From the NCBI GenBank assembly GCA_030153605.1, contig JASKLO010000018.1:1-32527 (forward strand): DNA of 32,527 bases, in the 5' to 3' direction. A program made the translations under genes and the position numbers. Every line of letters begins with the position of its first letter. Position 1 is the first letter of the stretch. Below, piece by piece: positions 4,242 through 32,104 of this stretch. The stretch is from Thermosipho sp. (in: thermotogales) (GTDB lineage: Bacteria > Thermotogota > Thermotogae > Thermotogales > Fervidobacteriaceae). A model generated the notes under the pieces. That model was not told where the DNA came from and ran no database searches. It saw nothing but the letters and a program-made list of their open reading frames with translations.

Positions 4242-7200
4242 TTATGCAAGTTTTTCTTTTTCTTTTTGAGCAAGCCTTGGTGTTTCTTCTATTTGAATAT
4301 TCGCAAACATATCTAAACCTGTTCCGGCTGGAATTAATTGCCCGACAATAACATTTTCTTTTAATCCAAGTAGTAAATCTTCTGCTCCTTCTACAGCTGC
4401 CATTGTTAAAACTTGAGGCGTTTGTTGGAAACTAGCAGCACTGAGCCATCCTACATGCTCTAATGAGGCTTTAGTAATTCTAAGCAATCTTCTTCTGTAT
4501 TTTATTGGCTCTTTTGGCAATATTTGATATGTTATTACTTCTCCTTCGCCATTTCTTACGACAAGTTCTTTGATTCCTAATGAAATTGCCTTTTCAAGAA
4601 TTTCTTCTGTAACTTCTGCTCCTTCAGGAGCAATTTCAACTATTTTTCCGTCTTCATCTTCACCTATTAAATGATTAACAAGTTCTTTGCCAATAACTCT
4701 CTTTCTGTTCATTTCAACGTGTGCATTGCCTTCCATAATTTCTCTATTAATTCTTTTTACTGTTTGAAGTCTTAGAAGATCGCCTGGCAAGTAATCTGTA
4801 TCTCCTGGATCAATTACTTCAACTTTATCAAGCATTTGTTTAATAATTATTTCAAAATGTTTATCATGAATATCAACACCCTGTTCAACATAAACCTTTT
4901 TAATTTCTTTCAATAGATAAAGGGCTGTAGCTTCAACACTTAAAGTTTCAAGAATTTTTCTAGGTCTTATTGCACCTGTAGTTAAAGATTGTCCAGGAAG
5001 TATTTTTTGTCCTTTACTAACGCTTACTTTTACTTTCGTTGGGATTTCATACTCATGTATATCTCCCGCTTCATCTTCAATATAAACTTTCTTTTTGCCT
5101 GTTTCATCTTCAACTATATCTTTTACAAAACCTTTTACAGCAGAAAATACTCCTTCTGGTTCTTTAAGTTTCTTTCTTGCTTCGAATAATTCTTCAGCTC
5201 TTGGAAGACCTTGTGTAATATCAGCAGTTGTTGCAATACCACCAGTATGGAATGTTCTCATTGTAAGTTGTGTACCAGGTTCACCTATAGATTGTGCGGC
5301 TACAACACCTACTGATTCTCCAACACCTACAACCTTATGATTTGAAAGATCCATACCATAACATTTTGAACATACTCCATGTTCAGCTTCACAAGTAAGA
5401 ACAGATCTAACAATTATTTCTGGTCTTACTTCGAGAGAACTTACATTATTTTCTAAAAGAATTTTTGCTGTAGTAGGTTCAATTAACTCTTCTTCGATAA
5501 CTAATTGTTTCATATCTTTGCTACTGACAACTGTTTCTCTAGAAACTTTTCCAACAATTGGAAATTCTTGTATTTTTAATTTCTTAACTCCTGCTGCTTT
5601 TGCAGCCCTAATAACTTCCCAATTTACCTCTGTTCCACTTTCATAGTGAACATCGTTAGAAATAAAATCTTCAGCAAGTTCTGCATAATTTTCAGGTAAT
5701 TCAGGATTAGAAATATCTATTTCTTTTTCTACCATTACAGGAATTCTTTTTGCGAATGTTCCAAGGAATTTAGCATCTTCATCTTCTAACATTGTATCTT
5801 TGGTGTACTCTTTTCCTGTTTCGGGGTTAACAAGAACATTATTAGTCTCAGGATCATAAACATCCTTTGCTAAAACCCTACCAAATAAGAAATCTTCAAG
5901 TTTTTCAACGGTCAATCCATCACTGCTCTTAAGAACAGTTGCTCTAACTCCATTACTAGTTCCACAATCTGTAGTTGTAATAACAACACTTTGAGCAACA
6001 TCAACTAGTCTTCTTGTTAAATAACCAGCAGAACTTGTCCTCAAAGCAGTATCAGCTGAACCTTTTCTTGCACCGTGTGTACTGTTAAAGAATTCTAGAA
6101 CTGACAAACCTTCTCTAAAGTTTGAAATAATCGGAATTTCAATTGTTCTTCCTGAAGGATCAGCCATCAATCCTCTCATACCAGCAAGTTGTTTTAATTG
6201 GTCTTTATTACCTCTGGCACCAGAATCAACCAATATAAATATTGGGTTATATGGATCTTTTCCTATATACTCAAATGTAGCTTCTTGAACTTTTTCCGTT
6301 GCATCTGCCCAAATTTTTATTGTTTCTCTGTACCTTTCTTCATCTGTTAGGAAACCTTGAGCATAAAGCATATTTACTTCTTCGACCTTTTTTCTTGCTT
6401 CTTCAATTATTTGATCACGCTCTGGTGAAATTAAAAGATCTGTGATACTTACAGTGAGTCCTGAAATTGTTGCATAATGGAAACCTAGATCTTTAATATC
6501 ATCTAAAAGATCCGCTGTTCTATCAACACCGTATTTTTTGAATGTTTTGTAAACTAGGTCTTTTATTCCACCTTTTCCGAATGTTTTATTGTAATCTTTA
6601 AATTCATCTGGAACAATACTTGCGAAAACTAATCTTCCATATGTAGTTTTAATAACTTTATCTTTTACCTTTACAAGAATTGGATCATGAAGTTTAATAT
6701 ATCCAAACTCATAAGCAAGTTCTGCTTCCTCTATTGAAGAAAACTTCCATTTTATATCCTCTGGTTGTACTTTGTCAAAATCTTTTCCAACCATTGTTAA
6801 GTAGTAAATTCCAGCAACAATGTCTTTTCCAGGCATAGAAATTGGTTTACCATGTGCAGGTGAAATAATATTGTATCTTGATAACATTAAGAATTTAGCT
6901 TCAGCTTGTGCCGCAGCAGATAATGGAACGTGAACTGCCATTTGGTCTCCATCAAAGTCCGCATTAAACGGTGGACAAACCAAAGGATGTAATTGAATAG
7001 CATTACCTTCAATTAACCTAGGTTCAAATGCTTGCAATGACATTCTATGGAGTGTTGGTGCCCTGTTTAATAAAACGGGGTGTCCTTTAATAATTTCTTC
7101 AAGAACTTCATAAGCTTGAGGAAGTTCCTTTTCAATAATCGCTTTTTTCATTTTTCTTGCTGTTTTACTTGTTTCTTCATCTTTATTTAAAAGTTCTGCT

Positions 7201-9194
7201 AAAACAAATGGTTTGAATAATTCCATTGCCATCTTTTTGGGTAGACCACATTCGTGAATCTTCAAATGAGGACCTACAACAATAACTGCACGGCCAGAAT
7301 AGTCAACACGTTTTCCAAGAAGATTTCTTCTAAATCTTCCTTTCTTTCCTTTTAACAAATCTGTTAAAGATTTTAGAGGTCTTCCATTTCTATCGGTTAC
7401 AGCCTTACCCATTCTTCCGTTGTAAATAAGACTATCAACTGCTTCTTGAAGCATTCTTTTTTCATTCTTTATAATTATTTCCGGGGAATTCATTTCATAA
7501 AGCTTCTTAAGCCTGTTATTTCTATTAATAACACGTCTATAAAGATCGTTAAGGTCTGTTGTTGCAAATCTTCCTCCTTCCACCTGAATCATAGGTCTAA
7601 TATCAGGTGGAATAACGGGTATAACTTCTAGAACCATCCACTCAGGTTTCGTTCCGCTCTTTAATAAGTCTTTTACTATTTTCAATCTTCTTAAAAGTTT
7701 TTTTGCTCTTCCGCTGCTCTTTGATATTTTCTTCAATTCTGATTCTATTTCAACTTTCAATTTTTCAAGATCTAGATTTTGTAAAAGTTTTTTAATAGCA
7801 GCTGCACCAGAATCTGCTTCGATCTTATCACCATACAATACTCTATATGCTCCATATTGATCATCGGTAATTATATCTCCCATTTTTAAACCTGTTTCTG
7901 TTGCAACATCATCATCTATCCTTGTAATTACAACAATAGGTCTATCATTTTCTACTTCTGTTTCAGCAGTAAACATTGCAGGATAATGTTCTTCAAAGAT
8001 TTTATATTCTTCAAGAGTAAGGTATTCATCCTCAAATAAAAATCTATCTGCAATAATATCTCCTTCAGAAATTTCCTGGCCATCTTCGACGTAAACCAAA
8101 GCACCTTCAAACAAAGGATAACTTTTTTCTTCAACAATGTTTTCTACATAAACATTTCCTGTAGAAATAACTTCATATTTTCCATCTTCTCTAGGCCTTA
8201 CATTTAATTCCTTACCGAAACTAACTGTTCCAGAAACTGATGCATAAACCGCTGGTAAAACTGTTCCATTAGTAAGTTGATCTCCTTTTTTCACCTTAGC
8301 TCCATTAGAAACAATAGGAGAAACTCCGTATGGCAAAGAAAAGGTAATCGGCATTTCTTTACTTGTTGTAAGGGGCTTAACTGTAATGGTTTCAGAGATT
8401 TCATCAACCTCAACTCTTCCATCAAATGGAGCATAAATTGGATCTATTTTCATCTCGGATACAATTTCTTCTCCTTGTTCAACTTTATCTCCATTCTTTA
8501 CATTTAAAATCATTCCACTGTAGACTCTATGTTCAGCTCTTGAAATTTTTCTTACATCAACCCAAGTAATTTCTCTATCTGTATGAGTCTTTTCTTTTCT
8601 AATTCTAACTTCTCCCGAAATACTAGAGACTACAGGTGTAACAGGAGATTTAATAATTACACCTGGCATTACTTCAAAATCAAGTTTCTGACTGTATATT
8701 TCATATTCAGTTTGATATAAAAGTGAACCTTTTATAAAATCGGTATTTTTAGGATCTGTTACAACTAGTATTTTTTCAATAATTCTTTTACCACCATAGT
8801 AAATAACATTTTCAAGCTCTTTTGCTTGAATAGATAAAAGAGAAGAAAGAATACTAGGACTACTTTTTAAATACCAAATATGAACTACGGGAGACACAAG
8901 ATCAATATGTCCCATTCTTCTTCTTCTAGCTTCTTTCGATTCAACTCTTACTCCACATCTTTCACAAACAGTTCCTTCATATTTTTTACCTTTATATTTT
9001 CCACAAGCACATTCATAGTCTTTAGTTGGACCAAAAATTCTTTCACAAAAAAGACCATTTTTTTCAGGTTTAAACGTCCTATAATTTATTGTCTCCGGTT
9101 TTTTTACTTCTCCGCTAGACCAACTTCTAATGACTTCAGGAGAAGCTACTTTAACAGAAACTTTTGCAATTTTTCTTTTAAACGTTGAACCCAT
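4242..9194 (-). CDS. rpoC: DNA-directed RNA polymerase beta' subunit
   Basis: This 1650-residue protein is the catalytic largest subunit of RNA polymerase. The first zinc site is C62, C64, C77, C80. The absolutely conserved NADFDGD is at 744-750, with the three Mg-binding Asp (746, 748, 750). A second zinc site is in [13 protein letters not shown], and the C-terminal [16 protein letters not shown] follows. Between the clamp region ending near residue 145 and the segment corresponding to E. coli EAIQALLKSMDL (near residue 480) there is an insert of about 300 residues. It is built of repeated short beta modules (for example APFDGRVEV and ASVSGTVSF), resembling the barrel-sandwich insert known from Thermus and Thermotoga. 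The start has an AAGGAGGG site. rpoB ends 22 bases upstream. Confidence 0.98.
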
Positions 9195-28875: not shown

Positions 28876-30486
28876 TTAAATTTCCACAATTTTATTACAG
28901 GTCTTTTCTAAAAATATCTTTGAATGTGACACAATTAAAATTATAGAATTTTTCGATTTTAACGATATTAGTTCTCTCAACTTTTCTGTTTTCTTAATAT
29001 CCAAATGAGTTGTTGGTTCATCTAAAAGATATAAATCCTTATTTTTTTGCACAAAAGCTCTAACGATAGCTATTCTCTGGAGTTCTCCACCCGAAAGGTT
29101 ACGCCCTCCTTCCTCTACTTCTCTTTCTAATGAAAGATCATCCAAAAATTCCAGTAACATCTTATCTAATTTTCCATTATCACCTAAAAATATATTCTCT
29201 TTCACAGTCCCTTTAAAAACAACTGGATGTTGAGGAACATAGCAAATTCTACGATAATACGAATCAAGCTCAAGTTCTCTCAAAGGTATATTGTTTATTT
29301 TTACATAATTTTCATTACCTCCTAAAAAACCAAGAATAACCTTAATTATTGTACTTTTACCTCCTCCACTTTTCCCAAATAATCCTATAATTTCTCCCTT
29401 CTTTGCCTCTAATTTAACATTTTTAAGCAACTCTCCAACCCCTTCATATGAAAAGCTAGGAACTCTTACTTTTATTGAATCAATTTTATTTTTTAAGGGT
29501 TGTTTAAATCTACTTTCCTGGTTCTCCCTTTGAGTATCATCTAATACTTCTGACAATCTTCTAAACACAACTTTTACTTCTTGGCGATGAATGTTAAAAT
29601 CCCAAAAATTTTTCGATGAATCATAAAGATAATTTACTACCATTAATATTGCTACTAAATCTCCGGCTTGCATTACTCCATTTTTTATATAATATGCCCC
29701 CATAAGAATTGCGATAATATAACCACTATTAAATAGTATTGCAAGAGGTATATTAAATAATACAATCGATTTTATCCTTTTTACATCTGATTTAACATAC
29801 CTCATATTAAATTCTTTAAATTTTGCTATAGAAAATTTCTCTTTGAGGTAAACTCTAAACATTTCCATTCCTTCGATATACTCTTTAAGTCTGCTTACAA
29901 ATTCAGTTTGAGTTTCTATAGTTTTATAAGTCAATTCTCTCACAATTGGATTTATGTAACGGATTAGGACTAAAAATGCAAATAATGGAAGAATTGATAT
30001 TAAAATTGTTATAGTATTTAAAAAAAACCCTAATATTAAAGCAAAACCAAACGTGAGCAGATCTTTCAAAAAAAACACAAAAGTAGGGTAGAAAAAAGTC
30101 TGTAACCTTTCTGTATCTGAACTAATATAGGTAAGTATTCTTCCTGATTCATAAAAGGAAAATTGATTATAATTGTTTTGTATAACCTCAAATAACAACT
30201 TTCTTAGAGAAGCAGAAAAAATTCTCATCCTAGTTTCAAAAAGATAATACGAAATATATATTAAAAATTCTTTTAACAAACTCAAAAATAAAAACAAAAA
30301 TACATAAATTTTGAACGAAAAAACAGCAGATTTTAGATTAAAAATAGAGTTAATAAGTTTTTTAGAAAGCAATGGGATAGGTATGGTTAATCCTGTAGCC
30401 ATAATGAGCAGTAAAAAAGCAAAAATTAAATATAAAATATGATCTTTAAAAAGGCTTAAAATCCGCTTTTCAACTCTGCTTTTCAT
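28876..30486 (-). CDS. ABC exporter, fused membrane and ATPase domains
   Basis: A 536-residue half-transporter. About six membrane helices occupy residues 15-300, then the nucleotide-binding domain: Walker A GKSGGGKST (371-379), Q-loop YVPQHP, signature LSGGELQRIAIVRAF (464-478), Walker B LYLLDEP (D489, E490) and H-loop H521. There is no N-terminal C39 peptidase, so any leader peptide would be cut by another enzyme. The ATG lies inside the end of the radical SAM gene (17-base overlap) with GGTGGAG upstream, so the two are coupled. The context suggests export of, or immunity to, a modified peptide. No clear terminator follows. Confidence 0.9.
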   Translation of the reverse strand: MKSRVEKRILSLFKDHILYLIFAFLLLIMATGLTIPIPLLSKKLINSIFNLKSAVFSFKIYVFLFLFLSLLKEFLIYISYYLFETRMRIFSASLRKLLFEVIQNNYNQFSFYESGRILTYISSDTERLQTFFYPTFVFFLKDLLTFGFALILGFFLNTITILISILPLFAFLVLIRYINPIVRELTYKTIETQTEFVSRLKEYIEGMEMFRVYLKEKFSIAKFKEFNMRYVKSDVKRIKSIVLFNIPLAILFNSGYIIAILMGAYYIKNGVMQAGDLVAILMVVNYLYDSSKNFWDFNIHRQEVKVVFRRLSEVLDDTQRENQESRFKQPLKNKIDSIKVRVPSFSYEGVGELLKNVKLEAKKGEIIGLFGKSGGGKSTIIKVILGFLGGNENYVKINNIPLRELELDSYYRRICYVPQHPVVFKGTVKENIFLGDNGKLDKMLLEFLDDLSLEREVEEGGRNLSGGELQRIAIVRAFVQKNKDLYLLDEPTTHLDIKKTEKLRELISLKSKNSIILIVSHSKIFLEKTCNKIVEI

Positions 30487-31674: not shown

Positions 31675-31770
31675 TTAACGAGAGTTTTTTTCACCAATTA
31701 TCCATTTAAGCGTAACAGAATCAAAGCATAAACAGTAATTATCTTTTTGATCTGCAAAAAAACGCTTCAT
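31675..31770 (-). CDS. Short ATG frame before the maturase; probable N-terminus joined by -1 frameshift
   Basis: This 31-codon frame starts with an ideal AAAGGAGG site 6-7 bases from the ATG and reads MKRFFADQKDNYCLCFDSVT and onward to IIGEKNSR, then TAA. Near its end the bases read A AAA AAC in phase (31684-31690), the classic -1 slippery heptamer. A -1 shift there enters the maturase frame and continues LSLSCSNDDRFLIEIFE, giving a 433-residue protein with no other start needed. Alternatives are an A7-versus-A8 indel (sequencing error or phase variation), or a separate 31-residue Cys peptide translated before the maturase. Confidence 0.6.
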   Translation of the reverse strand: MKRFFADQKDNYCLCFDSVTLKWIIGEKNSR

Positions 31771-31810: not shown

Positions 31811-31930
31811 TCAAACAAACTTCACATTTACAAAAGCAAACTTTTTATAATCACAGTTTAGCATTAATTCATTGCTCAATTTAAAAAAGTAAGAAGGTGC
31901 AGGGCAAAATATTATTAAAATTCGTACCAT
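31811..31930 (-). CDS. Possible 39-residue hydrophobic peptide frame
   Basis: ATG at 31928-31930, reading MVRILIIFCPAPSYFF, then KLSNELMLNCDYKKF, to TGA at 31811. It has two Cys and lies just upstream of the maturase. No ribosome site precedes it, and part of it is read from one arm of the 20-base inverted repeat, so it may be chance. Confidence 0.2.
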   Translation of the reverse strand: MVRILIIFCPAPSYFFKLSNELMLNCDYKKFAFVNVKFV

Positions 31931-32104
31931 CAATTAATGAATTTGATGATTTTAGTGTGCAAAATACGAACAGTGTGCGCTTGAAAGAGAACAATTTATC
32001 CTAGAAGGTGTAATTTTTAATGCTTTAACTTTTATATCAGACCATTTTAAAAATATCTTCATAACGATCCCCCCTATTTTTTGCATTTTACCCTGCACCT
32101 TCTT
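31891..32104. repeat. 20-base inverted repeat enclosing a 174-base segment
   Basis: AAGAAGGTGCAGGGCAAAAT at 31891-31910 recurs inverted at 32085-32104 with 19 of 20 bases matching (C to T). The arms enclose the 36-residue peptide frame. No direct target repeat is seen immediately outside. It could be a small non-autonomous element, a recombination site, or a shared protein-binding site. Confidence 0.6.
31952..32062 (-). CDS. Candidate 36-residue precursor peptide
   Basis: The ATG at 32060-32062 is preceded by AGGGGGG, 6 bases away, a usable ribosome site. The product begins MKIFLKWSDIKVKALKIT, then PSRINCSLSSAHCSYFAH. The N-terminal half is basic and amphipathic, as a leader would be. The C-terminal half is Ser/Cys/His/Tyr-rich with two Cys seven apart. 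An in-frame ATG at 32084-32086, behind an AAGGTG, would add eight residues. Position (about 180 bases before a radical SAM/SPASM maturase, same strand) suggests a modified-peptide precursor. This is inference from context; I recognise no family. Confidence 0.4.
   Translation of the reverse strand: MKIFLKWSDIKVKALKITPSRINCSLSSAHCSYFAH

Follow-up and report, generated by a model that had tools for sequence, protein, structure and literature searches.

Layout of the maturase locus

The window analyzed here, a stretch of 32,527 nucleotides from Thermosipho sp. (assembly GCA_030153605.1, contig JASKLO010000018.1, positions 1-32,527), carries on its minus strand a locus comprising a radical SAM maturase gene, an exporter gene and a short peptide gene (Table 1). 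Reading base by base, we located a strong ribosome site, AAAGGAGG, preceding an ATG at 31770-31768; from this codon the zero frame encodes a peptide of 31 residues, MKRFFADQKDNYCLCFDSVTLKWIIGEKNSR, whose end reads GGT GAA AAA AAC TCT CGT TAA, with the stop codon at 31677-31675. The run within this stretch comprises seven A's followed by a C at 31684. The maturase frame lies one base back and is open from 31690 to a stop at 30470. The previous sequence-only reading had described an A AAA AAC heptamer in zero-frame phase at 31684-31690, together with a 31-residue zero-frame peptide and a 433-residue product after a -1 shift; its coordinates and phase were right, and both lengths were reproduced (27 + 406 = 433 residues for the shifted product). 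Within the body frame, TTG 31609 is the earliest common start codon; it is located 5′ of the radical SAM domain and, as that reading had also stated, has no well-spaced ribosome site.

Table 1 Features of the maturase locus in the window.
Feature	Position	Strand	Description
Zero-frame ORF, 31 codons	31675-31770	-	Severed maturase N-terminus, as judged from the relative; 19/28 residues match the N-terminus of the relative; preceded by ribosome site AAAGGAGG
A7 run, point of the frame break	31685-31691	-	In-phase A AAA AAC at 31690-31684
Maturase catalytic body, 406 open codons	30470-31690	-	Radical SAM (CNLKCLHC) and SPASM-like cysteine-rich C-terminus
ABC exporter, 536 aa, intact	28876-30486	-	17-base overlap with the end of the maturase gene; 67% identity to the relative's exporter
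Probable precursor peptide MKIFLKWSDIKVKALKITPSRINCSLSSAHCSYFAH, 36 aa	31952-32062	-	67% identity to the peptide at the same position in the relative
Inverted repeat (20 bp) around the precursor gene, 3′ arm in the transcript	31891-31910	-	
Inverted repeat (20 bp) around the precursor gene, 5′ arm in the transcript	32085-32104	-	

We searched 103 genomes of the phylum and found one close intact relative of the maturase. It lies in G082, whose finished single-contig genome (2.17 Mb) belongs to the same order; other scans of genome contigs for close maturase relatives returned none. The G082 maturase is a single ORF of 432 residues with 63% identity to that of the window (63-64% over the body), and it begins in the same manner as the ATG frame of the window, with MQRFFKDIKSDYCLCFDSDTLRWIIVDKR... 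or, in a longer form, MQRFFKDIKSDYCLCFDSDTLRWIIVDKRSALKC... At the junction, the G082 DNA reads GAC AAA AGG TCG GCT and contains no A-run. Once the window sequence is shifted by one base, the two proteins align with one single-residue gap, which lies elsewhere. Conservation is about equal on the two sides of the break, at 19 of 28 residues (68%) before it and 256 of 405 (63%) after it, and third codon positions are the commonest place of change on both sides. Because the G082 homologue is encoded by one uninterrupted ORF that begins alike, we take the 31-mer to be the conserved N-terminus of the enzyme, and the equal conservation of N-terminus and body argues that both evolved as one protein. 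This accords with the claim of the sequence-only reading that start and catalytic body form one protein, for which a homologue alignment had been named as the check: the relative is fused in a single frame. Judged from this comparison, the split frames represent one gene of about 433 codons, normally read in a single frame.

An arrangement of two genes, namely one for a genuine leader peptide of 31 residues and one for a maturase that starts at TTG 31609, is the least credible of the readings that we considered. It draws on the TTG being the first common start in the frame and lying ahead of the radical SAM domain. Against it stand the homologue, which is one ORF with an N-terminus matching the 31-mer, and the TTG, with its lack of a well-spaced ribosome site. 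Moreover, the body frame upstream of the TTG, which had been called protein-like, is conserved in the homologue. A homologue starting at the TTG position alongside a separate, conserved 31-codon gene was not found in our homologue searches, which included the 103 phylum genomes.

A putative RiPP cluster with an inverted repeat

The maturase body matched the radical SAM family (PF04055, E 7e-24), with the CxxxCxxC motif present as CNLKCLHC, whereas the SPASM match (PF13186) reached 18.6 bits, below the cut-off of 21.5; many cysteines are conserved in the alignment with G082. All NCBIfam maturase models scored far below their curated cut-offs; the best bit scores were 85 against 625 for the window enzyme and 83 against 340 for the G082 protein, and neither the StsB sactipeptide nor the PapB ranthipeptide family scored above its cut-off. 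The closest solved structures by sequence were the sulfatase-maturating enzymes and SkfB. The window enzyme resembles StsB, PapB, AlbA, SkfB and the anaerobic sulfatase maturases in its CxxxCxxC radical SAM core, its cysteine-rich C-terminus and the small Cys-containing peptide and exporter that adjoin it; it differs from them in these low NCBIfam scores and in a short N-terminal region without a Pfam-recognized domain.

A conserved small precursor gene and an exporter gene adjoin the maturase, and from their sequences the three genes have the makeup of a putative RiPP cluster. The peptide encoded upstream of the maturase (36 codons; E 2e-13 against the G082 peptide) is the probable precursor. 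It contains Cys, and it was seen only in this genome and in G082, with a remnant in G015. No Rfam family was detected within the window. A survey lists one sactipeptide locus in the phylum, Tmel_0409 of Thermosipho melanesiensis (PMC4289311); the small RiPP cluster described here is apparently undescribed so far, and our literature search for radical SAM RiPP maturases with a frameshift or pseudogene found none.

The 20-bp inverted repeat encloses the precursor gene together with its ribosome site, and its core has no other copy in the genome. The folded RNA of this region is far more stable than its shuffles (z -4.4). In G082, a stem of different bases occurs at the same place (L034, 2829-2995; z -2.7): by eye, UGCAGGG/CCCUGCA in the window corresponds to UGGGGGG and its complement in G082, with two pairs changed on both sides, so that the pairing is kept by compensatory changes. 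The stem is followed by a U-run in the window and in G082. The inverted repeat may act as an RNA element that sets the amount of precursor relative to maturase, or it may be a DNA inverted repeat or inversion site.

The A-run as a candidate recoding site

We then considered functional recoding, in which a -1 ribosomal slip at A AAA AAC, or an extra A inserted by RNA polymerase, would yield some full-length maturase at a ratio that is used or tolerated. The heptamer lies exactly in phase and the shifted frame enters the enzyme directly. To place this in the context of the genome, we counted motifs and runs across 264,394 codons, drawn from 810 intact genes of this genome for which the congener G016 has a homologue, the expectation being obtained by shuffling synonymous codons within genes. 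The in-phase A AAA AAC (-1 phase) occurred 117 times against 119.3 ± 10.3 expected. Its presence at the frame break therefore says little, and calls for caution, as chance alone gives about one such heptamer per seven genes in a genome of 30% GC. Runs of A7 were likewise not avoided (727 observed, 670 expected; ratio 1.08), whereas A8 was halved (118 against 229; 0.52) and A9 or longer was almost absent (2 against 101; 0.02). Among T-runs, T7 (205 copies), T8 (31 copies) and T9 or longer occurred at 0.77, 0.41 and 0.03 of expectation, respectively. Runs of A6-A7 are, in general, not avoided in the coding sequence of this genome.

Such genome-wide run-length counts provide a simple test of which runs an organism treats as slippery. 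Since A7 is not avoided while A8 is halved and A9 almost absent, A7 does not appear to be treated as slippery here; the avoidance of A8 and A9 is what one would expect if slippage, by either DNA or RNA polymerase, does harm once a run reaches about eight bases. There are known cases of transcriptional slippage at A-runs rescuing broken genes, and productive slippage needs an A/T run of about nine, or eight in some organisms (PMC1088944). With its seven A's, the run falls below the length at which avoidance begins in its own genome, and we infer that slippage rescue at this site should be poor.

The surroundings of the heptamer likewise argue against recoding. Folding of the RNA 3′ of it was no better than that of shuffles (z +0.34 and +0.93). 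The upstream sequence, read by eye, offered no convincing stimulator of Shine-Dalgarno type; at most GGA fits at a plausible distance. A_AAA_AAC is also a much poorer shift site than A_AAA_AAG in E. coli (PMC5009743). The site shares an A-run with an alternative frame with the A_AAA_AAG -1 site of E. coli dnaX and the A9 slippage site of Thermus dnaX; those sites, however, are strong or long and functional, whereas the heptamer of the window ends in C, its run has seven A's, and it is absent from G082. Hence, of the hallmarks of a programmed -1 site, the X XXY YYZ pattern in phase is present, whereas conservation, a stimulator and genome-wide avoidance are lacking. Of the explanations offered in the sequence-only reading, programmed frameshifting and productive polymerase slippage are thus both unsupported, given an unconserved site, an absent stimulator, an unavoided motif and a run that is too short. 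Overall, we regard functional recoding as improbable. Still less probable is that slippage of polymerase or ribosome on A7, at a high growth temperature, yields a small set amount of maturase, which would make this a RiPP enzyme dosed by recoding.

Phase variation, whereby the run would flip in length within the population and switch the maturase on and off, also merits consideration, given a homopolymer near the start, a product that could be costly and a frame that a length change would restore. We consider it more doubtful again: seven A's are short for a contingency run and commonplace in the conserved genes of this genome, the one assembly holds a single allele (A7), and G082 has no repeat at that position.

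Decay in relatives and the origin of the frame break

Related genomes retain the locus in various states of decay. In G014 (L040, G014:C6), the maturase is reduced to about 160 residues in broken frames, and the transporter is intact (5866-7473), with 65% identity to that of the window and 81% to that of G082; an exporter that has outlived its maturase suggests that it is still useful, for example, in self-protection. G019 retains the last 56 maturase residues and a broken transporter start. In G015 (L042, G015:C1, about 5940-6075), precursor residues 4-25 run in frame into the maturase tail through a shared NCS, evidently, from the sequence, as a deletion remnant. The cluster is absent from three congeners, and G016 has a different, unrelated gene upstream of hcp. 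The cluster appears dispensable and under repeated loss across the family. The picture that emerges is of a small RiPP cluster that one finished genome of the order has kept intact and that is decaying elsewhere. Weak DNA matches in two congeners were rejected as remnants: in G017 the match spans no more than the ribosome site and the initial codons, and in G018 it belongs to another radical SAM gene.

In the window, the precursor and exporter genes are intact, and apart from the A7 break the maturase gene contains no stop and no second lesion. An intact single-frame homologue exists and the lesion is specific to this genome, as in a pseudogene. We consider it probable that a genuine one-base change recently altered the A-run in a dispensable RiPP cluster and broke the frame, leaving a pseudogene in the making; recent inactivation is favored because decayed copies occur in related genomes, and a one-base change is to be expected here because a dispensable cluster is repeatedly lost. 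In this scenario, a one-base change 28 codons after the start would have cost the maturase its frame; ribosomes loading at the good start site would produce the 31-residue stub, and the catalytic body would be left without a good start. We infer that the maturase is inactive in this genome, and the sequence comparisons point to a single-base break with no built-in frameshift switch. The case resembles singleton poly-A frame breaks and one-base frameshift pseudogenes (PMC3711429) in its one-base shift at an A-run, single-frame homologue and unconserved site; nothing essential differs, the one added feature being locus decay in three related genomes.

An assembly or sequencing error, in which case the organism's actual run would leave the maturase frame continuous and the gene unbroken, is a possible but clearly less probable explanation, genuine mutation being the likeliest. 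A lone homopolymer lesion in an otherwise perfect ORF is what an error would look like, and the good ribosome site at the start and the intact precursor and exporter fit it as well. In a survey of prokaryotic frame breaks, singletons confirmed by BLAST are expected to reflect sequencing error and not genuine indels (PMC3711429). A further point against a genuine mutation is that just one intact close homologue was found. On the other side, the cluster is of a kind lost in relatives, and errors of this type are rare in the assembly. We scanned 1.22 Mb of the 1.69-Mb assembly against G016 for frame breaks, covering 836 genes with a homologue (782 kb), and obtained four candidates, two of them credible; with only two credible breaks in 836 genes, the assembly is not riddled with homopolymer errors. 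Of the A7, A8, T7 and T8 runs counted above in conserved genes, over 1,000 in number, about one is shifted, so that the chance of error is about 0.1% per run, and for any given 1.3-kb gene it is well under 1%. Among the options listed in the sequence-only reading, sequence error and a change in A-run length (A7/A8) remain, and simple recent inactivation is added to them. The gradings given to the five main readings (inactivation, error, recoding, phase variation and two genes) are judgements, not computed probabilities.

One of the two credible breaks, in a conserved crcB-like gene (L124, G000:C1 46442-46811, minus strand), lies at a T8/G3 run. As another homopolymer frameshift in the same assembly, it speaks for error at the maturase as well; the crcB-like break itself may reflect inactivation of a second gene, or it may be a sequencing error. 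The second credible break, of one base at a short A-run, lies in a gluconate-permease-like gene (L179, G000:C53, about 2064-2097), which is 87% identical to that of the congener. The remaining frame-break candidates proved on reading to be antisense, gene-edge or non-coding matches.
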